The notes under the pieces are model-generated. The model searched no databases, was not told the DNA's origin, and saw nothing but the letters and a program-made list of their open reading frames with translations. A program made the translations under genes and the position numbers. Of a DNA stretch of 44,440 nucleotides, positions 3,436-35,310 are shown one piece after another; the stretch's first letter is position 1, and every line of letters begins with the position of its first letter. Origin of the DNA: Verrucomicrobiia bacterium (GTDB taxonomy: Bacteria; Verrucomicrobiota; Verrucomicrobiia; Limisphaerales; UBA8199). The DNA is taken from assembly GCA_035946615.1 (NCBI GenBank), contig DASYZB010000111.1, positions 1 through 44,440 on the forward strand. The letters are read 5' to 3'.

Positions 3436-4014
3436 ATGGTTGCAGTGAATTCCACGATGCTTGCCTTGGGCGCGCGCGCGCCTGCGTTTCGTCTGCCGGA
3501 TACCACCGGCAAGAGCGTTTCGCTCGATGACTTCAACGGGGCCGAGGCATTGCTGGTGGCCTTCATTTGCAATCACTGCCCTTATGTAAGGCACATCCGC
3601 TCCGGGCTGGCGCAGGTCGCTCGCGAGTACATGCCGCGGGGCGCTGCCATTGTTGGGATTAGTTCCAACGACGTTGAACATTACCCCGCAGACAGCCCGG
3701 CCAAAATGGCCGAAGAAGCCAAAGCCGCTGGATACATTTTTCCCTACCTCTATGACGAAACCCAGGAGGTCGCAAAGGCTTATCGGGCAGCTTGCACTCC
3801 CGACTTCTTCCTGTTCGATGCCAGCCAACAGTTGGTTTATCGGGGGCAATTGGATGACAGCCGCCCCGGCAGCAGCATCCCCGTCACAGGCAAAGACTTG
3901 CGCGCCGCCCTCGACGCGGTCCTCGGGGGCAAGCCGGTTCCTGCCCAGCAGCGGCCCAGTATTGGCTGCAACATCAAATGGAAACCAGGTAACGAGCCCG
4001 GCTACTTTGGATAA
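3436..4014 (+). CDS. thioredoxin/AhpC-TSA-fold family protein
   Basis: This 192-residue thioredoxin-fold protein starts with a peroxiredoxin-like segment (LGARAPAFRLPDTTGK), then has the redox motif CNHCPYV with C45 and C48, and ends with SIGCNIKWKPGN (C178). That combination marks a widespread family annotated as 'thioredoxin family protein' or AhpC/TSA-like. It probably acts as a thiol-disulphide reductant or peroxide-scavenging protein, but the substrate is not established for the family. There is no signal peptide, so it is likely cytoplasmic. The ATG at 3436 puts the conserved 'LG..AP.F.LPD' strand at residue 10, as expected. Confidence 0.88.
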   Translation: MVAVNSTMLALGARAPAFRLPDTTGKSVSLDDFNGAEALLVAFICNHCPYVRHIRSGLAQVAREYMPRGAAIVGISSNDVEHYPADSPAKMAEEAKAAGYIFPYLYDETQEVAKAYRAACTPDFFLFDASQQLVYRGQLDDSRPGSSIPVTGKDLRAALDAVLGGKPVPAQQRPSIGCNIKWKPGNEPGYFG

Positions 4015-4073
4015 CAAAAGTGGTTGTTCCCACTGCCCTATTCCATTAGATTCCCGTGTATTGTAGGAATGAG

Positions 4074-4613
4074 ATGGATTCGGTCTATTCGGAGCAAGCC
4101 CCTTTCATGACACCCAATCGGCGCATTGGGCTGATTGCTCTGCTGGTTATCGGTTTGGACCAACTGACCAAGGGAATTGTCCTGCGCTTGCTGGGCTACG
4201 CCCAGGAGAAAGTAGTGGTTGAGGGCTTCTTCAAATTTGTTCATTGGGCCAATACGGGGGCCGCCTGGAGTCTGTTCCGGGGCAATAACGAGGCCCTGGC
4301 TGTTATCGCCTTGCTGGCTTTGCTCATCCTCTTTTTCAGCCGGCACCACTTTGATTCACGCACGCTGTTGGGCCAGGTCGCCTTTGGCTTAATCTTCGGT
4401 GGAATCGTCGGGAACCTCATCGACCGCCTGTTCCGCCATCATGTCATTGATTTTCTTTACTTTTACCTCCAGCAACGAGGCGGGACCGAGCTGGGTTTCC
4501 CCGCTTTCAATGTGGCCGACAGCGCTATTTGCACGGGTGTGGGATTGATCTTTTTGATGACCTGGCGGAACGAGCGCGATGCCAAAGGGCCCGCATCGGC
4601 TGTCGCAAAATAA
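4074..4613 (+). CDS. lspA: lipoprotein signal peptidase (signal peptidase II)
   Basis: This inner-membrane aspartyl protease removes the signal peptide of diacylglyceryl-modified prolipoproteins. The 179-residue protein has four hydrophobic segments and both catalytic motifs: NLIDR with D117 and FNVADS with D149. The early motif '[10 protein letters not shown]' and NTGAAWSLF also fit the family. The frame is open from a GTG at 4056, but the ATG at 4074 is preferred because AGGAA lies just upstream at a suitable distance; an ATG at 4107 is another option. The C-terminal 20 residues are charged and cytoplasmic. An rluD-type gene follows after 35 bp, a pairing (lspA-rluD) seen in many bacteria. 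Confidence 0.96.
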
Positions 4614-4648
4614 AACTCCTGCCTTGGATAGTTTCTCTTTATTGATCG

Positions 4649-5602
4649 ATGCCATCGCGCACTGAAGTCATAAGCATTGAGCAATCATTGCCTTCCGAAC
4701 GGTTGGATGCCTGGTTAAAAAGCCATTTCCCGGCTGTCTCCCGAGGGGCCATCCAGCGCCTCATCCAGGAGGGCCATATCCGCATCAATGGCCGGGTGGT
4801 CAAACCGACCCATACCCCGCGCGCAGGCGAGCAGGTTCAGGTCCATTGGCCGGAGGCGCAGCCGGACCAAGCGCTCCCCGAAGCGATTCCATTGGAGATT
4901 CTATATGAGGACGAGGCCTTGTTGGTGCTCAATAAACCGCCGGGATTGGTGGTTCACCCTGCAGCAGGCCACGAAACCCGCACCCTGGTCAATGCGCTGC
5001 TGCATCATTGCCGCGGAGAACTGAGCGGTATCGGTGGGGTGGCCCGTCCTGGGATCGTCCATCGTCTGGATAAAGACACCAGCGGCTGCATGGTCGTAGC
5101 CAAAAGCGACGCAACCCATCTCGCGTTGTCCGCCCAGTTTGCCGGCCGAAAGGTGGAAAAGATTTACAATGCGATTGTGTGCGGCGAGATGGAGCGTGAG
5201 CGGGGGGAAATCCGGGCTGCCATCGCCAGACATCCCTCGCATCGCAAGTGCATGGCGGTGGACGAGGAATTCGGGCGCGAAGCGCACACCAGTTATCGGG
5301 TGCTGGAACGGTTGCGCGGCACCACACTGGTTGAAGCCCGCTTGCACACCGGGCGGACCCATCAGATTCGAGTGCATTTCAAGTTCCTGGGATACCCGCT
5401 GCTAGGCGACTCCACCTACGGTCAGCGCCAGAATCAGCGCCTGGGGGACCTGACCGGTTACCTGGCACCGCGTCAGATGCTGCATGCCTTGCGCCTGGCC
5501 TTTATCCATCCGCGCACTGGCAAACGGTTGGGTTGCGAAGCCCCGTTTCCTGAAGATTTCACAGACGCTCTCGCTCGCTTGCGCCCGCCAATGAGAACGT
5601 AA
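4649..5602 (+). CDS. rluD: RluA/RluD-family 23S rRNA pseudouridine synthase
   Basis: The protein has 317 residues. An N-terminal S4 RNA-binding domain (about 12-75, SRGAIQRLIQEGHIRINGR) precedes the catalytic domain with the RluA-family motif GIVHRLDKDTSG, whose aspartate D141 attacks the target uridine. Later conserved segments are RTHQIRVHF and GDSTYG. Length and S4 domain fit RluD, which modifies helix 69 of 23S rRNA, but RluC-like specificity cannot be excluded by eye. It lies 35 bp downstream of lspA on the same strand and is probably co-transcribed with it. Confidence 0.93.
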   Translation: MPSRTEVISIEQSLPSERLDAWLKSHFPAVSRGAIQRLIQEGHIRINGRVVKPTHTPRAGEQVQVHWPEAQPDQALPEAIPLEILYEDEALLVLNKPPGLVVHPAAGHETRTLVNALLHHCRGELSGIGGVARPGIVHRLDKDTSGCMVVAKSDATHLALSAQFAGRKVEKIYNAIVCGEMERERGEIRAAIARHPSHRKCMAVDEEFGREAHTSYRVLERLRGTTLVEARLHTGRTHQIRVHFKFLGYPLLGDSTYGQRQNQRLGDLTGYLAPRQMLHALRLAFIHPRTGKRLGCEAPFPEDFTDALARLRPPMRT

Positions 5603-5768
5603 CCGGTTGAAAAACAAAACAAAGGAATTCCGCTGCAATGGAACCCTCCCGTCCCGAGCGATTATTAGGCGTATTTATACTTCCAGTTATTCAAACTACA
5701 ATCCGCTTGCGATCCCTTGTCGTGGGTGCTATTCTTCCTCGGATTTTTCTCGGACCATTTGCGCATTT

Positions 5769-6479
5769 ATGAATAAAACTACTACTGTTGTCTTCATCGC
5801 CGCACTGGCGGGCTCTCTGCACCTGGCCACTGCGGGTGAAATCATCGGCACCGTCACTCTCAAAGGAACCCCGCCCAAAGAAAAGGACATCACCCCGCTC
5901 AAGGACGACCCTAATTGCGGCAAGCTCTATCCCAACACGATGCCTACGACCCATTTCTATGTCGTCGGCTCCAACCACGGCCTGGCCGATGTGGTCGTTT
6001 CGCTGCAGGGCATCACCGGCAAATCCACCGGCGCTTCGGCTCCGGCTGTGGTGCTCGATCAGAAGGGATGCGAGTATCATCCCCAGATTTTTGCCGTCCA
6101 GACCCATCAAAAGATCACGGTGCGGAATTCCGACCAGGTCCTGCACAATGTGCATGACCTGCCCACTGCCCCGAGCAACAAGGAACAGAACATGGCCCAA
6201 ATGCCGGGCGGCGCCGACCTGACATTCTCTTTCGACGACCCGGAGATGTTCCTCAAGTTTAAATGCGATGTTCACCCCTGGATGTTTGCCTGGGCAAGCG
6301 TGTTCGATCATCCTTATTTCGCCGTGTCGGGCGAGGACGGCTCGTTCAAAATCGAGAATGTTCCTGCAGGCAAGTACACCATTCAGGCAGCGCATCGCAA
6401 GGCCGGGACCGCAACACAGGAGGTTGAGGTCAAAGAAGGCCAGCCTGCAAAGGTCGATTTTACACTCGAAGCCAAGTAA
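5769..6479 (+). CDS. exported cupredoxin-like protein with C-terminal carboxypeptidase-regulatory-like domain
   Basis: This is a 236-residue exported protein. The ATG at 5769 gives a signal peptide (MNKTTTVVFIAALAGSLHLA, cleavage near ATAG). The middle part resembles a plastocyanin-type copper fold: H126 in SDQVLHNVHD and the C-terminal ligand loop CDVHPWM with C166, H169 and M172, the classic His-Cys-His-Met set of type 1 copper sites. Residues about 190-236 form a carboxypeptidase-regulatory-like (CnaB/Ig-like) domain (GSFKIENVPAGKYTIQAAHR). It lies 25 bp upstream of ctaA in the cytochrome oxidase locus, so a role as periplasmic electron carrier or copper donor is a reasonable inference. 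The longer open frame from 5607 has no signal-like N-terminus. Confidence 0.85.
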   Translation: MNKTTTVVFIAALAGSLHLATAGEIIGTVTLKGTPPKEKDITPLKDDPNCGKLYPNTMPTTHFYVVGSNHGLADVVVSLQGITGKSTGASAPAVVLDQKGCEYHPQIFAVQTHQKITVRNSDQVLHNVHDLPTAPSNKEQNMAQMPGGADLTFSFDDPEMFLKFKCDVHPWMFAWASVFDHPYFAVSGEDGSFKIENVPAGKYTIQAAHRKAGTATQEVEVKEGQPAKVDFTLEAK

Positions 6480-29419: not shown

Positions 29420-29489
29420 AATTCGACTGCGCTTCTGACTCACAAACGCGTACAGGGGTGTAAAAAATATATCTGGACGAAAATACATT

Positions 29490-29507
29490 ACTGGTCTAAT
29501 GTCCAGT
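29490..29507. promoter_or_regulatory. candidate LexA operator
   Basis: ACTGGTC-TAAT-GTCCAGT has two 7-bp half-sites (one mismatched pair) around a 4-bp spacer. The layout is that of the published verrucomicrobial LexA motif TGTTC-N4-GAACA, with TGGTC/GTCCA in place of the consensus halves. A further half-site CTGGAC lies at 29473-29478. A -10-like TCTAAT (29495-29500) is inside the palindrome. It lies 367 bp before the lexA start. Confidence 0.45.
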
Positions 29508-29573
29508 ATGAATGTTGATGGCGTTGGCTAAAGGCCATTGCTCAAAGTCAGTTCTCATACCGGAGGGATGGCT

Positions 29574-29733
29574 GAGAATAGCCCAACGCTTCAGCGTTGG
29601 GGAGACGTTGGGAAAGGATTTTAGTCCCGGAGGGACGGCTGACTGGAAGGCGCAAGTGTGCAGGTTCAGCCGTCCCTTCGGGACTAAAGGACTGCGACAT
29701 CCCTCCCCAACGTTGAAACGTTGGGCTATTCTC
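29574..29733. repeat. nested foldback element upstream of lexA
   Basis: Two pairs of inverted arms are nested. The outer arms 29574-29603 and 29704-29733 match at 28 of 30 positions; each contains a hairpin, CCCAACGC-TTCA-GCGTTGGG on the left and CCCAACGT-TGAA-ACGTTGGG on the right. The two differences change a C-G pair into a T-A pair within the hairpin. The inner arms 29620-29642 and 29666-29688 match at 22 of 23 and contain GTCCC-GGA-GGGAC and GTCCC-TTC-GGGAC. The remaining 23 bp in the middle are unpaired. It encodes nothing evident. Confidence 0.85.
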
Positions 29734-29873
29734 GGATGTCCCTTCGGGACAGCCCGTCGCTGGTTTTGATTATGCAACGCTTCGGAAACCTGCGCTACGA
29801 CTGTCGACTCATCCCGCGTATTGGCGGTGGTGAATGGCGGCAATCGTCCGTGTAAATTCAAATCAGACCCCTT

Positions 29874-30503
29874 ATGAGAGCTCTCACCAATAAGCAAAGA
29901 CAGATTCTGGAATTTATTCAGCGAAAGCAGGATTCGGAACGGCTTACGCCCACCCTGCGCGAGATTGCCGCGCATTTCCGCTTTCGCAGTCCCAATGCGG
30001 CGCTGGCGCACGTTCAGGCCCTGCTGGTCAAAGGGGCGCTGAAAAATCTGCCCGGGCGCGCCCGCTCGCTGCAAGTGGTGAACCCGCATGGCCCCAAGGA
30101 CCAGCCTCGGCCCCGAGTGGTATCCATTCCCATCTATGGCTCGATCCCCGCCGGCCTGCCTCAGGATGCCGCCCAGGAGGAAGAGGGCTGTGTGCTAATC
30201 GACGTAAACACTTTAGGGATTAAACCGAGCGCCCGAACCTTCGGCCTGAAGGTCCACGGCGATTCGATGATCGGCAAAAATATTGTCGATGGCGACATCG
30301 CCATTATCGAGCATGGGGTGCAGCCGCGTCCGGGCGACGTGGTGGCCGCTCTAATCGATGGGCAGGTTACGCTAAAAACGTTCCTCATGCAGCGAGGCAA
30401 ACCCTATTTACGGGCGGAGAATCCTCGCTACCCAAACCTGATGCCCCGAGAGGAATTGCAGATTCAGGGGGTGATGATGGCGCTGGTGCGCAGGCGCAAA
30501 TAA
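29874..30503 (+). CDS. lexA: LexA repressor
   Basis: The 209-residue SOS repressor has an N-terminal winged HTH (LTNKQRQILEFIQRKQ, then LTPTLREIAAHFRFRSPNAALAHVQAL) and a C-terminal peptidase domain. Self-cleavage residues are in place: the A93-G94 bond in GSIPAGLP, nucleophile S131 in HGDSMIGKN and K168 in GQVTLKTF; the Ser-Lys spacing of 37 equals that of the E. coli protein. Cleavage on RecA filaments would release the SOS genes. The fused DinB-DnaE2 polymerase gene follows 103 bp downstream on the same strand, so repressor and mutagenic polymerase probably share control. The palindrome at 29490 is a candidate operator. Confidence 0.97.
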   Translation: MRALTNKQRQILEFIQRKQDSERLTPTLREIAAHFRFRSPNAALAHVQALLVKGALKNLPGRARSLQVVNPHGPKDQPRPRVVSIPIYGSIPAGLPQDAAQEEEGCVLIDVNTLGIKPSARTFGLKVHGDSMIGKNIVDGDIAIIEHGVQPRPGDVVAALIDGQVTLKTFLMQRGKPYLRAENPRYPNLMPREELQIQGVMMALVRRRK

Positions 30504-30564: not shown

Positions 30565-30606
30565 TTGTCCAGGACCGGGGACTTGAAATTTAGAGAATCG
30601 ATTTTT

Positions 30607-33600
30607 ATGACTCCGTGTCGGTCCATCGTGCATTTGGATGCCGATGCCTTTTTTGCCTCAGTCGAGCAGGCATCCGACCGGCGGCTGCGGGGCAAACCCA
30701 TAGCCGTCGGCGGAGAAAAACGCGGCATCATTGCCTCGGCTTCGTATGAGGCGCGCCAGTTCGGCATTTACACGCCCATGCCTACTGCCCTGGCGCGCCG
30801 GCTGTGTCCCAAACTGGTGTTGTTGCCCGGCGACTTCGAGAAATATGAGCTCTTTTCGCGCCTGATGTTTTCGTATGCCTACGATTTCACGCCGGATGTC
30901 GAGGTGGGCTCGATTGACGAGGGTTACATCGACCTGACCGCCACCCGCAAGCCGGCGGTGAGCATCGCCCAAACAATTCGCGGTGCGATTTGCCAGGCGC
31001 TGAGGCTCTCGGTCAGTGAAGGCATCGCCGGCAACAAACTCGTCAGCCAGATTGCTTCCAAGCTCAAGAAGCCCTCCGCCTTTGAGTTTGTGCCGAATGG
31101 AGGGGAGGCGCAGTTCCTGTCGCCCCTGGCCAGCCAGTGGCTGCCTGGGGTCGGGCCGAAGACCTCGATTCAACTCACCGCGGCCGGCCTGGCGCACATT
31201 GGCCAGATTGCGCAAACGCCCATCGACCTGCTAAACCTGCTGGTTGGCAGTCAGGCCCCGCAGTTGCGCCGATTCGCCCGGGGCATCGATGAACGGCCAG
31301 TCATCTCGATGCGCCCCGCAGCCAAATCTTACGGCGAGCAGGAGACATTCGCGGCCGATACGACCGATGAAGAGTTCCTGGACGCTACCTTGCGGCGGAT
31401 GGCCGATAAGCTCATGGCCAAAGTACGCGAGGACGGCAAAAGCATCCGCACAGTAACGGTGAAAGTCCGTTACAATGACATGGATGAAGAGCAAGCGAGC
31501 GAAAGCCTCATCGAACCCACCGCCCTGGAAACTGAAATTTATGGAATGATTTCGGGTCTGCTTCGCAGGGCCTGGCGCCGGCGGGTCAGCCTCCGGCTTG
31601 TCTCGCTCAAACTGGCTAATGTTTATGATGGCCGCTTCGGCGAGGAGTTGGTTTTGGACGGTTCCGCCCGCCAACACATGGCCCGGCAACGCCTGGCCGG
31701 CACCTTGGACGAGTTGCGCCAAAAATATGGCCGTGGCGTGGTCCTGCGCGGTCACGATTTTATTCTTAAAGTAGCGCAGGCATCCTCGCCGGCGGGTTTG
31801 GGCGGCGTCTCGCCGCACAAAAACCAGGCGAAACGCCTGGAAACCCGCAGGCGAGACACCTGCGCGGGTGTCAATCGCCCTGAGACAACGCCGCGAACGA
31901 GCTTTTCTCCCGGGCCGGAGCTCCGGTTTCGCGTGGAATTGAAATCTGCGGCTAATGCCATGCCTCATCTCGGATACAGTATCCGCCATCACGCGCCCCG
32001 CGCCACACAGCGCTCCTGCATCCCGCTCAATATTCACAGCTACTATTCCTTTCTTGATTCGACCCTCTCCATCCGAGCCATTGTCGAGTTGGCTAAACGC
32101 CATGAACTGCCGGCCATTGCCTTAACCGACAAGAACAACCTGCACGGCGCGGTAGAATTCGCGCAGGCGGCAGCCGAGGCGGGGATCAAACCGATTATTG
32201 GGGCTGAACTCAACTGGCGCGGCCATCGCGTCTGCCTCTACGTCCAAAACCAAACCGGCTATCGCAATCTCTGCCGCATTTTAAGCCGTGCGGGGAGCGC
32301 GCCTGCCTCCGATTTTGCGCCTCACACCGATGGTCTTTTGGCCGTAAGCGCCAATCCCGCTCTGGCTTCTTTATTTCCAGGCCGTTTTTATCTCGAAATC
32401 AACAGCCTCGAAGCTTTTGAATCCGTCAGCCTTCTTGCCTTGCCCTGTGTGGCATCATTGCCAATTCATTACGAACTGCCTGCGGACCGTTGGAAATACG
32501 ATATCGTGCAAAGCATCCGCACGCTGACCCTGCTGCGGCAGCAACATCCCGAAAAGCGGCTCGATGGGGATTATCATTTCCGGCCCGACGCCGAAATGCA
32601 GAAACGGTTTGGCGCGCACCCGGAACTGCTCGCACACAGCTTTGAAATCGCCGAGCGCTGTTCGTTTGAATTTTCACTCGGCAAACCGCAGTTCCCCAGC
32701 TACTCGCCGGACGGGTCCGCCCCAGCCGCTTTTCTGCGGCGTCTGGCGCTCGATGGGCTCGAGCGCCGTTACCCCGACAACCACGCCGCCCTCCGGCCGC
32801 AGCTCGAAGAGGAGTTGGCGATCATCATGGATGTCGGTTACGAAGAATATTTCCTGGTGATGTGGGATATCCTGCAGGAATGCCACCGCCGGGGCATCGA
32901 ATGGATCACCCGCGGCAGCGCAGCGGACTCGCTTGCCTGCTATTGTCTTGAGATCAGCGGTGTATGTCCCATTCGGTTCGATCTCTATTTCCGCCGCTTC
33001 CTCAATAAAGAGCGGATGGCGCTGAACAAGCTGCCGGATATCGATGTCGATTTCCCGCACGACCGCAAAGATGATGTAATCGATTTAATCTTCGAAAAAT
33101 ATGGTCCGGGGCACACAGCGGTGGTTGGCGGGTTCTCGACCTTTCAATCCCGGAGCGCCTTTGCGGAGGTGGCGAAGGTCCTGGGTGTTTCCGAGCATCA
33201 GGTGCGCCGATTGACCGAGCGGCTGCCCCATTTCTCGAGGGCCGGCGAGCTGGTTGAAACCGTTGCCAGCACGCTCGAATGCCGCGATTTGCCCCTTGAC
33301 CAGGAGCCTTACTCGACCGCGCTGCGCATGGCCCAGTTTCTGGATGGGTTCCCCCGCTATCCAAAAATGCATCCGTGCGGCCTGGTCCTCTCGCGCCAGG
33401 CAATAGATGAAATCACTCCCTGCTTCATTTCCGCCAAAGGCTATCCTGCCACGCATTTTGATATGGATTCGGTCGAAGCGGTCGGCCTGGTTAAAATGGA
33501 CATCCTGGCCCAGGGCGGCCTGGCTGTGATGCGGGATGTGATGGGAAATTGCCGCGAAAGAACGCATGGAACGCAAAGAAGCGAATCTGGAACTGAACGT

Positions 33601-35310
33601 CCTTTGCCATCGCATGTGCCGCAAATCTCTTGCGACCCGCAAACAAGCCGAACACCTATAGAGCAAACGAGCGCCTCACCTTCAGATTCTCTGCGTTCTT
33701 TGCGTTCTTTTGGGGCCCCAATTCCAATTTCGGCTTTGCCCTCAACCTCCGGTCCGTTTGATGATCCCAAGGTCTGGTCGCTGATTGCCAGCGGCAATGC
33801 CCGGGCCGTTCATCACATTGAAAGTCCCGCCATGATCTCCCTCTGCCGGATATGCAACGTGCGGGACATCGATACCCTCATTGCCATTGTCTCGGTTATT
33901 CGCCCCGGCGCCGCCAATGAGAGCAAGAAAATGGAGTTCGCCCGGCGTTACCAGGGTCTCAGCGCGGCGCATTACCCGCATCCATCGCTCGAACCATGCC
34001 TGCGCAGCACTTACGGACTGGTGGTCTATGAGGAGCATATCCTGCAAATCTGCGAGGCCTTTGCCGGCTTGCCACCTGGGCGGGCCGATATCCTCCGGCG
34101 GGCCCTGGCCAAAGACAAAACCGAGCTGATTGCGCAAATCCAAATCGAGTTCGCCAATTGCGCCCGGCGCCTTGGTCGCGCCGAAGCGGAGATTGCCGAA
34201 GTCTGGGACCTGGTAGCCGGCTTCCGCGGCTATGCCTTTTGCAAGGCGCACAGCACGGCCTATGGAGTCGAGGCCTATCAATCGGCCTGGCTCAAGCGGT
34301 ATTACCCTGCAGAATTTATGGCCGCTGTCCTCACCAACGGCAAAGGTTTCTATGACGCGCTGGTTTACATCCTCGAATGCCATCGGTTGCGCATCCCGCT
34401 GCTGCCGCCATCCATCAATGAACCCGGCCCTCAGTTTACGGTGACGCATCCCCCTCGTCCTCGATTTTGTGATGGTTTCGAGGATGAGGACGAGAACCAG
34501 AACCAAAATGATGGGAGGGGACGCGGTAAAACACGTTCTACTAAAAAAATCCGCGTCCCCGTCCTGCAGGTCAAGGGCCTCACCACCTGCACCAAAGAAG
34601 CTATCCTCCGCGAACGGGCTCTGGGCAAGTTTTCCTCGCTGGCCGATTTCTTGGCGCGCGTCCAACCGTTGCCGGAAGAAATGGAGGCCTTGATTCGCGT
34701 GGGCGCGTTTGATGAGTTCGGCCAAAGCCGGACCGCGCAATATTGGCAATTCAGAACCAATGTGGCACGCAATCTGGCAACCGCTACGCCGGCGCGCGCC
34801 CACAGCCAGAATACGCCGCGTAACGCGATAGCGCGCCTGCCAAGGCATCACCAACCCTGGCTGTTGCCTCCCGGAGACATCGATCGCTTGCCTTCCGTTC
34901 CATTGGCCGAACCCGGGCGCCTCGAATGCCTGCGGGCTGAAGAGGAACTCCTGGGTTACCCGGTGAGCGGTCATCCGCTTGAGCTATTCCCTGACATCGC
35001 CTGGGAGACTTATTGCCCCGTCAACCGCCTGGGCAATCATCTGGGTGAACAAATCGTTACCTGTGGCCTGGTCATCGAACAGCGCCTCTTTCACCAGGTC
35101 ACCGGTGAGCCGATGAAGTTCCTTACCCTGGCAGACTGGACCGGTGTGGTGGAGACCGAACTCTTTGCGCGCACTTACCGGTCCTATGGCCTGAGCACGA
35201 TCCGCTATCGCGTCCTGGAAATCACCGCCACAGTCGAGCCATTCGAAAACGGGCGCGGTTATACCTTGCGCGTGCTGCGGGCGGGGCAACCGAGGATAAA
35301 GAAGAAATAG
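30607..35310 (+). CDS. DinB (Pol IV)-DnaE2 fusion, SOS mutagenesis polymerase
   Basis: A single open frame of 1567 residues. Residues about 1-385 form a Y-family polymerase of the DinB type with intact metal ligands (HLDADAFFASVE with D11; SIDEGYID with D104, E105), unlike ImuB, which lacks them. Residues about 470-1567 are a DnaE2-type polymerase III alpha subunit: a shortened PHP domain with lost metal ligands (NIH at 475-477, TDK at 507-509), palm motifs PDIDVDF (D811, D813) and LVKMDI (D965), an HhH region and a C-terminal OB fold (KFLTLADWTGVVETELF). Three foldback DNA segments are read in frame (residues about 390-419, 983-1036, 1283-1318). An internal ATG at 31960 could start a separate DnaE2. 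No imuA is present. It lies downstream of lexA. Confidence 0.92.
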   Translation: MTPCRSIVHLDADAFFASVEQASDRRLRGKPIAVGGEKRGIIASASYEARQFGIYTPMPTALARRLCPKLVLLPGDFEKYELFSRLMFSYAYDFTPDVEVGSIDEGYIDLTATRKPAVSIAQTIRGAICQALRLSVSEGIAGNKLVSQIASKLKKPSAFEFVPNGGEAQFLSPLASQWLPGVGPKTSIQLTAAGLAHIGQIAQTPIDLLNLLVGSQAPQLRRFARGIDERPVISMRPAAKSYGEQETFAADTTDEEFLDATLRRMADKLMAKVREDGKSIRTVTVKVRYNDMDEEQASESLIEPTALETEIYGMISGLLRRAWRRRVSLRLVSLKLANVYDGRFGEELVLDGSARQHMARQRLAGTLDELRQKYGRGVVLRGHDFILKVAQASSPAGLGGVSPHKNQAKRLETRRRDTCAGVNRPETTPRTSFSPGPELRFRVELKSAANAMPHLGYSIRHHAPRATQRSCIPLNIHSYYSFLDSTLSIRAIVELAKRHELPAIALTDKNNLHGAVEFAQAAAEAGIKPIIGAELNWRGHRVCLYVQNQTGYRNLCRILSRAGSAPASDFAPHTDGLLAVSANPALASLFPGRFYLEINSLEAFESVSLLALPCVASLPIHYELPADRWKYDIVQSIRTLTLLRQQHPEKRLDGDYHFRPDAEMQKRFGAHPELLAHSFEIAERCSFEFSLGKPQFPSYSPDGSAPAAFLRRLALDGLERRYPDNHAALRPQLEEELAIIMDVGYEEYFLVMWDILQECHRRGIEWITRGSAADSLACYCLEISGVCPIRFDLYFRRFLNKERMALNKLPDIDVDFPHDRKDDVIDLIFEKYGPGHTAVVGGFSTFQSRSAFAEVAKVLGVSEHQVRRLTERLPHFSRAGELVETVASTLECRDLPLDQEPYSTALRMAQFLDGFPRYPKMHPCGLVLSRQAIDEITPCFISAKGYPATHFDMDSVEAVGLVKMDILAQGGLAVMRDVMGNCRERTHGTQRSESGTERPLPSHVPQISCDPQTSRTPIEQTSASPSDSLRSLRSFGAPIPISALPSTSGPFDDPKVWSLIASGNARAVHHIESPAMISLCRICNVRDIDTLIAIVSVIRPGAANESKKMEFARRYQGLSAAHYPHPSLEPCLRSTYGLVVYEEHILQICEAFAGLPPGRADILRRALAKDKTELIAQIQIEFANCARRLGRAEAEIAEVWDLVAGFRGYAFCKAHSTAYGVEAYQSAWLKRYYPAEFMAAVLTNGKGFYDALVYILECHRLRIPLLPPSINEPGPQFTVTHPPRPRFCDGFEDEDENQNQNDGRGRGKTRSTKKIRVPVLQVKGLTTCTKEAILRERALGKFSSLADFLARVQPLPEEMEALIRVGAFDEFGQSRTAQYWQFRTNVARNLATATPARAHSQNTPRNAIARLPRHHQPWLLPPGDIDRLPSVPLAEPGRLECLRAEEELLGYPVSGHPLELFPDIAWETYCPVNRLGNHLGEQIVTCGLVIEQRLFHQVTGEPMKFLTLADWTGVVETELFARTYRSYGLSTIRYRVLEITATVEPFENGRGYTLRVLRAGQPRIKKK
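31776..31863. repeat. in-frame foldback element in the DinB-DnaE2 linker
   Basis: The left arm (31776-31799) and right arm (31841-31863) are imperfect inverted copies; the right arm contains AGGCGAGACACCTGC. Between them are hairpins GCGGCG-TCT-CGCCGC (31802-31816) and CCAGGCG-AAA-CGCCTGG (31824-31840). The segment is translated as a Gly/Lys/Arg-rich linker after the DinB part. Confidence 0.8.
33555..33712. repeat. in-frame foldback element in the DnaE2 palm region
   Basis: The left arm begins AAAGAACGCATGGAACGCA (from about 33557), and the right arm ends TGCGTTCTTTGCGTTCTTTT (to about 33711); they are imperfect inverted copies of about 30 bp. The encoded 50 or so residues (rich in Ser, Arg, Thr and Pro) sit between the DnaE segments LAVMRDVM and DDPKVWSLI, where family members have a short connector. 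Confidence 0.75.
34454..34560. repeat. in-frame double hairpin in the DnaE2 C-terminal part
   Basis: Two inverted repeats follow each other: CTCGTCCTC (34454-34462) with GAGGACGAG (34486-34494), and GGGGACGCGG (34517-34526) with CCGCGTCCCC (34551-34560). They are translated as an Asp/Glu/Asn/Lys/Arg-rich insert between PGPQFTV and VPVLQVKGLT, which are adjacent or nearly so in ordinary DnaE2. Confidence 0.7.

Follow-up and report, generated by a model that had tools for sequence, protein, structure and literature searches.

Active Y-family polymerases (PolY) are known with DnaE2B in Bacteroidetes, and inactive ones with DnaE2B outside Bacteroidetes, as separate genes in both cases, from the polymerase surveys of 2019 and 2026 (PMC6511836, PMC12926913). 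The DnaE2B-PolY-RecA combination was put forward as a putative mutasome by Timinskas and Venclovas in 2019 (PMC6511836) and by Timinskas et al. in 2026 (PMC12926913). This type of mutasome has not yet been characterised experimentally (PMC12926913), and the PolY-DnaE2 complexes outside ImuABC and Pol V are predictions from gene neighbourhoods and AlphaFold models (PMC12926913).

The fused gene and the described mutasomes

The window, meaning the whole 44,440-nucleotide stretch of DNA analysed here (contig DASYZB010000111.1 of a Verrucomicrobiia bacterium), encodes both kinds of polymerase in one frame. The features of the locus are as follows.

29874 to 30503, + strand: lexA, 209 aa, with LexA_DNA_bind and Peptidase_S24 domains (Pfam, TIGR00498)
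30607 to 35310, + strand: DinB-DnaE2B fusion gene, 1567 aa, a single open frame with a stop-free translation
30607 to 31767, + strand: DinB half, residues 1 to 387, with the complete Y-family domain set
31660 to 31767, + strand: C-terminal helix of DinB and RecA-NT-like tail, RQRLAGTLDELRQKYGRGVVLRGHDF (model, profile comparison)
31768 to 32016, + strand: linker, residues 388 to 470, predicted to be disordered
32005 to 35310, + strand: DnaE half, residues 467 to 1567, probably DnaE2B-like (Pfam domains, tree, alignments)

The lexA product scores 147.1 bits with TIGR00498 (cut-off 110.95), and its gene ends 103 bases before the fusion ATG at 30607, on the same strand. All Pfam domains of the fusion are above cut-off, with IMS (10–152) and IMS_C (240–339) in the DinB half and PHP (474–565), DNA_pol3_alpha (709–968), DNA_pol3_finger (1049–1187) and HHH_6 (1263–1377) in the DnaE half. 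The N-terminal half also passes the Pol IV/DinB model NF002677, at 257.3 bits against a cut-off of 256. A first-pass annotation, made before any database search, had placed DinB and DnaE in one frame at 30607–35310, without a stop between them and behind lexA; translation, Pfam and the position and strand of lexA bear this out. The exact start of the fusion remains unproven because the frame is open upstream of the ATG, from 30478, where the earliest start codon of any kind is a TTG at 30565.

In its domains, active site and fold (IMS, IMS_C, D + DE) the N-terminal half resembles Pol IV (DinB), from which the fusion differs through the addition of a RecA-NT-like tail and a second polymerase. 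The likeness to DnaE2B-PolY-RecA lies in the pairing of an active-site-intact Y-family polymerase with a probable DnaE2B-type partner, apparently without ImuA or ImuB. There the two are separate genes, whereas here they are one chain, and lexA usually adjoins the fusion, while no LexA homologues were found in Bacteroidetes (PMC8565304). The fusion should therefore be seen as a variant, with its parts covalently linked, of an already recognised kind of mutasome, since the published PolY-DnaE2B pairs are separate genes. The first-pass annotation knew of no description of the architecture, and this is consistent with the literature searched, in which no DinB-DnaE2 fusion was found; the search did not include supplementary files or the 2016 Verrucomicrobia LexA paper, which could mention the cassette. 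The passages of PMC6511836 and PMC12926913 consulted here mention no PolY-DnaE2B fusion.

Plasmids carry two clusters for comparison. In Persicobacter (Bacteroidota), PolY and then DnaE are neighbouring separate genes. The Desulfosarcina ovata cluster has the order lexA, DUF72, Y-family homologue, DnaE and is taken here, by gene context, to be DnaE2B-iPolY-RecA. It is led by lexA and has the Y-family homologue before DnaE, the same order as in the fusion, but the genes are separate and the catalytic positions of the Y-family member are replaced (judged by eye). The DnaE proteins of both plasmids are likewise taken to be DnaE2B by gene context and not from a published list.

The ImuA-ImuB-DnaE2 (DnaE2A) system is also an SOS-linked Y-family protein with an error-prone DnaE. 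However, ImuB is catalytically dead, whereas the Y-family half of the fusion keeps its acids, and the DnaE half, at 474.7 bits, falls below the cut-off of 939 for the NCBIfam model NF004225 'error-prone DNA polymerase', which the Burkholderia ImuABC enzyme (DnaE2A) passes with 1516.3 bits. The Desulfosarcina (585.1 bits) and Persicobacter (496.1 bits) DnaE proteins are both under this cut-off. In the DnaE tree all the halves, fused or split, group together (SH-aLRT 100). Beside them are the Desulfosarcina and Persicobacter proteins (SH-aLRT 96), with two DnaE2A and the replicative DnaE of the genome itself (DnaE1) elsewhere in the tree; this is a quick tree in which two long outgroup branches meet at this point. 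Although the references were assigned by context, the DnaE half is likely to be DnaE2B-like and not of the ImuA/ImuB-linked type. The label DnaE2 in the first-pass annotation is therefore valid only in the wider DnaE2B sense, because this half is below the error-prone cut-off. That annotation also needs correcting in its comparison with ImuA/ImuB cassettes, since pairs of DnaE2 and an active Y-family polymerase that lack ImuA and ImuB had been described before, as separate genes (PMC6511836, PMC12926913).

None of 24 genomes, the window's included, exceeded the cut-off of the NCBIfam ImuA model, and none of 14 control genomes passed either. The sub-threshold matches lie at recA, with one further frame in G017. 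A search for ImuA and ImuB using the Burkholderia proteins found nothing, without a positive control.

Recurrence of the fusion among relatives

An initial search covered 58 genomes, the window's own included, and 20 loci were picked from it for their long frames; in all 20 one frame, 1441–1678 aa long, spans both halves. Twelve stretches were doubtful; two of them, in G003 and G043, hold a DinB but no DnaE. In G050, G030 and G008 the junction is in frame with a frameshift or stop elsewhere, in G016 an in-frame junction is cut by a contig end, and in G012, G025 and G009 the halves are parted by contig ends.

A class survey of 384 genomes, not chosen by the fusion, gave 59 close DinB copies (E 1e-100 or better) in 56 genomes. 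Frames of at least 1343 aa contain 49 of these copies, each with a DnaE half on the same contig in a frame of identical length. The order to which the window belongs accounts for 19 of the families with such fusions, and a further 9 lie outside it. Three copies are contig-cut or frameshifted (G372, G008, G016) and seven are separate (G003, G170, G133, G187, G173, G043, G349). Where the two halves are adjacent on one contig the junction is in frame in 51 of 52 cases, made up of the 49 full frames with G016 and G008. The sole out-of-frame pair is that of G187, with two frames about 500 bases apart and a free-standing DnaE frame that has an ATG just before the PHP domain. Separate genes for both halves are present in G170, G133 and G187, while a search at E 1e-90 detected no DnaE half in G003, G173, G043 and G349.

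In the named genomes the best 80 of 192 relatives were kept. These were ranked against a fused query, and the fused share among them therefore leans upward. Sixty-nine of the 80 loci are fused throughout (one, L143, starts at a contig end inside DinB), six are fused across the junction and frameshifted or cut elsewhere, four are interrupted by a contig end no later than the junction, and one, L141, has DnaE without DinB.

Most of these records are metagenome bins, which would favour an assembly or binning artefact as the source of the joined frame. Against this, the fusion is found in a one-contig genome (G258, L165), in the cultured isolate Brevifollis gellanilyticus (L122) and in a single-cell genome (L077), as well as in dozens of bins, and an artefact is all but excluded. 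The first-pass annotation would have been refuted by relatives that encode the two proteins separately, with the fusion unique to this assembly; the result is the opposite, with the fusion in many families, an isolate and a one-contig genome. The architecture and its conservation are shown by sequence, and the joined protein appears to be a lasting invention of this bacterial group, rather than a sequencing error, because it recurs across so many relatives.

In the DinB tree, the fused and split DinB halves group together in a single clade (98/96). Two stand-alone DinBs, the lexA-linked one of G349 and that of G043, fall outside it, as do four DinBs of family f65. The separate cases G003, G170, G133, G187 and G173 are nested inside the fused clade. 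At least five changes between the fused and separate state are needed on this tree, a number compatible with a single fusion followed by four splits or losses, but the count cannot tell gain from loss. From the sequences alone, a single origin of the joined gene followed by later splits appears likely. With 7 of the 59 copies separate, the covalent link is not indispensable, and since split versions exist the parts may also work apart or be discarded. The splits suggest that the fusion is an advantage and not a necessity.

The f65 DinBs are 44–48% identical and stand alone, with no lexA or DnaE nearby in the 8 regions fetched; two other f65 genomes, G281 and G373, carry the fusion. In L159 (G292; 3585–5930) an f65-type stand-alone DinB ends a 782-aa open frame, and it is possible that it is fused to an unidentified N-terminal part. 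The close relative L057 (G003) keeps lexA and a 404-aa fusion-type DinB, with no DnaE half at E 1e-90, and is read as a natural deletion of the DnaE half. In L263 (G371:C22, 5903–8347) there is an 815-aa partial frame of DnaE2B-like type, additional to the fusion. Bins titled Klebsiella pneumoniae or Akkermansia muciniphila (L098, L125, L080 and others) carry a verrucomicrobial fusion locus and are probably mislabelled.

A phylum-wide draw of 383 genomes gave one match outside the class, in G595. This genome (L262, G595:C53), which is assigned to a different class of the phylum, has DinB joined to the beginning of DnaE in one contig-cut frame of 532 aa, a pattern that may reflect wider spread, transfer or misplacement. 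The DnaE half matches 2036 plasmid records and the DinB half 413, each below 60% identity and unsorted as to fused state. The DinB half was matched by none of the best 80 viral-contig loci. Carriage by phages or plasmids was rejected.

The window genome has another dinB (L261, 3870–4965; G000:C3), which is frameshifted or misassembled, and the search found no further Y-family copy in this genome. For this reason the fusion may carry the only intact Y-family copy visible to the search.

Catalytic sites, DinB tail and linker

The first-pass annotation listed six catalytic acids, all of which are present at the following positions in the alignments.

30637 to 30639, + strand: D11 of DinB
30916 to 30921, + strand: D104 and E105 of DinB
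33037 to 33039, + strand: D811 of the DnaE palm
33043 to 33045, + strand: D813 of the DnaE palm
33499 to 33501, + strand: D965 of the DnaE palm

These acids are unchanged in all 21 full-length fusions aligned. In a larger alignment of 93 distinct fusions none is ever substituted where it is aligned, with D11 present in 89, D104 and E105 each in 91, and D811, D813 and D965 each in 90. The remainder are gaps, and these 2–4 gap cells per catalytic site were set aside. The 93 are the distinct sequences of 108 loci chosen for having both halves in one frame, so that they are in frame by construction. In the DnaE half the first histidines of the PHP metal site are replaced, as is usual in DnaE2. Activity of either site is inferred from the sequence.

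Comparison of the window and three close relatives gives, for both halves, dN values of 0.12–0.20 and dS values of 1.2–1.8, with dN/dS of roughly 0.07–0.17 (near 0.1 for the DinB half). No such constraint was found in the linker in this comparison, where the alignment is poor. Selection is shown by sequence; that it is purifying in both halves is a likely inference, made with dS near saturation.

These results bear on the possibility that the DinB half is an ImuB-like adaptor, which would target the DnaE2B enzyme to the clamp and RecA, its own catalysis being vestigial. In favour of this, the Y-family partner is dead in ImuA-ImuB-DnaE2 and in DnaE2B-iPolY-RecA (PMC6511836, PMC12926913), and, judged by eye, catalytic positions are replaced in the Y-family protein encoded next to the Desulfosarcina DnaE. 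Against it, the three Y-family acids are unsubstituted in the 93 distinct fusions and the DinB half has the low dN/dS given above, whereas inactive Y-family homologues diverge far more (PMC6511836). A pure adaptor is therefore considered unlikely.

In the AlphaFold model of window residues 1–478 the core pLDDT is mostly above 80, and a helix at 352–374 follows the little finger of the DinB half. Foldseek matched this model to DinB-DNA structures (4r8u, E 7e-32) with an rmsd near 20, and the placement of the domains therefore differs from that in the matched structures. A model of the first 1196 residues of a shorter relative (L127) matched DnaE and DinB structures. With pTM of 0.59 (window DinB half) and 0.61 (L127), the relative placement of the two cores could not be used and was dropped. 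The models predict two folds joined by a disordered tether.

A RecA-NT motif has been described for the Y-family members of mutasomes (PMC6511836). The known Y-family member of DnaE2B-PolY-RecA has this motif, whereas the tail of the fusion is only RecA-NT-like. The tail and the RecA N-terminal segment, the latter taken from relatives with the window genome included, align in register; on this basis the tail fits the published motif, but the match is weak (HHalign probability 1%, P 0.02). The RecA profile was built from 20 of 21 RecA loci, one being without the search motif. Its score with the tail was reached by none of 200 column shuffles and exceeds that of ten other stretches of the DinB half, although the HHalign probability is only 1%. 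A stretch resembling the ELxL clamp motif possibly precedes the tail, as read off the alignment by eye.

The linker is 23–133 aa long (median 33) in the 93 distinct fusions and rich in P, A, R and S. Three features within the frame of the window are relevant here.

31765 to 31885, + strand: dispersed repeat, in frame in the linker, matched 14 times in the genome with itself counted, mostly over part of its length
31960 to 31962, + strand: internal in-frame ATG, proposed as a start in the first-pass annotation; not conserved in the closest relatives
33540 to 33765, + strand: second in-frame repeat stretch, in the DnaE half between the palm and finger domains, with 22 other matches in the genome

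Both repeats lie there without loss of frame, and the second lies at a place of variable length in the relatives. These are dispersed repeats inside coding sequence and are read as repeats used as protein spacers.

A different reading, offered in the first-pass annotation, is that two proteins are made, a recent stop loss having merged the genes, with DnaE2 starting at the internal ATG at 31960. Such a codon is present, and the free-standing DnaE frame of G187 does contain an ATG just before its PHP domain. However, an in-frame ATG is present in the linker of only 21 of the 93 distinct fusions, and 13 linkers lack ATG, GTG and TTG alike; in the 21 aligned fusions, four have the ATG and four have none of the three codons. 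The check proposed with that annotation, alignment of the linker, showed it to be variable. Two of the window's three closest fetched relatives, L037 and L039, have no linker start codon at all and so no counterpart of the 31960 ATG, and no Shine-Dalgarno-like stretch was seen by eye before it. With a linker ATG in only a minority of the fusions and the fusion recurrent among relatives, stop loss with an internal start was rejected as very unlikely, being contradicted by the linker alignments.

It is also conceivable that one chain is translated and then cut in the linker, giving two working proteins in equal amounts. The predicted disorder and lack of conservation of the linker would suit this, as would the separate genes in G170, G133 and G187. 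Against it, no conserved cleavage motif was seen by eye in the linker alignment, and cleavage does not require the single frame that 51 of 52 adjacent pairs keep. This explanation is regarded as improbable.

The lexA-led cluster and a putative two-step bypass

The gene lexA lies at most 700 bases upstream in 20 of the 21 full fusions, the window included, and is upstream in 54 of 59 named fused loci that have at least 1 kb of upstream sequence. Two further features are found upstream of lexA in the window.

29489 to 29508, + strand: LexA-type operator TACTGGTCTAATGTCCAGTA, exact TACTG-N10-CAGTA, 385 bp upstream of lexA
29556 to 29751, no strand assigned: palindromic repeat cluster of two inverted Acido-Lenti-1 RNA-family elements, between the box and lexA

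The Verrucomicrobia LexA motif is TGTTC-N4-GAACA. A paper on this motif by Erill and others was reportedly published in 2016 (cited in PMC7739468). This motif was tried first and was ruled out as the operator of the window, where its best match has 4 mismatches (3 in a longer stretch); TACTG-N10-CAGTA then emerged from the data. The box at 29489 is the sole match to the latter in the window at one mismatch or fewer. Since such a match also turns up in 29 of 100 shuffled versions of the window, the box alone proves little and its weight comes from the relatives. In the close relatives L037 and L067 a TACTG-N10-CAGTA box starts about 20 bp before lexA.

A set of 78 distinct lexA upstream regions was compared with plain letter shuffles. 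The set holds one copy of each region of at least 150 bases for which the LexA match starts within the first 6 residues, and includes some non-fused loci. Exact TACTG-N10-CAGTA is present in 26 of the 78 against 0 of 1560 shuffles, and exact TGTTC-N4-GAACA in 10 against 0 of 1560. One or other box is found at one mismatch or fewer in 37 of the regions and in 33 of the 1560 shuffles; neither is found at this threshold in the other 41 regions. The linkage to lexA and the operator-like box are shown by sequence. That a LexA operator is present upstream of the lexA-led cluster rests on sequence and on position in the relatives, without binding or induction data. The cluster at 29556–29751 is read as an insertion and looks like a mobile palindromic repeat cluster. 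The Acido-Lenti-1 pair may alter the control of lexA in the window genome.

The reading preferred here is that of a LexA-linked mutasome, with two polymerases in one polypeptide acting as an SOS-induced two-step translesion machine. This is held to be moderately likely (probability about 0.6) and is favoured over its alternatives. Following DNA damage, LexA would be cleaved and the joint protein made. The fusion would be brought to a stalled primer by the sliding clamp and by RecA, the latter acting on the RecA-NT-like tail. There the DinB site would insert opposite the lesion, and the DnaE2B site, held close by the tether, would extend the distorted end. The outcome would be a two-step inserter-extender bypass with the enzyme ratio fixed at 1:1. 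The order, DinB first and DnaE second, has its basis in general knowledge of translesion synthesis. Damage induction, recruitment by RecA and the clamp, insertion by DinB, extension by DnaE2B and equal dosing are all inferred, with no protein or activity data.

A bolder form of this reading has a single chain with two unrelated working active sites, of the Y and C families, passing the primer end within the molecule at the lesion while positioned by RecA and the clamp. The first-pass annotation had proposed such a handover in one chain; its fused architecture held, and the handover itself is plausible but, on balance, leans slightly towards the doubtful.

For the SOS-linked mutasome reading, a fusion kept across a class is independent natural evidence that both polymerases work at the same site and in equal amounts. 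The fusion also offers a single protein for purification, in which the two active sites can be mutated independently. With it, one may ask which of the two inserts and which extends, and whether the primer end is passed on inside one molecule.
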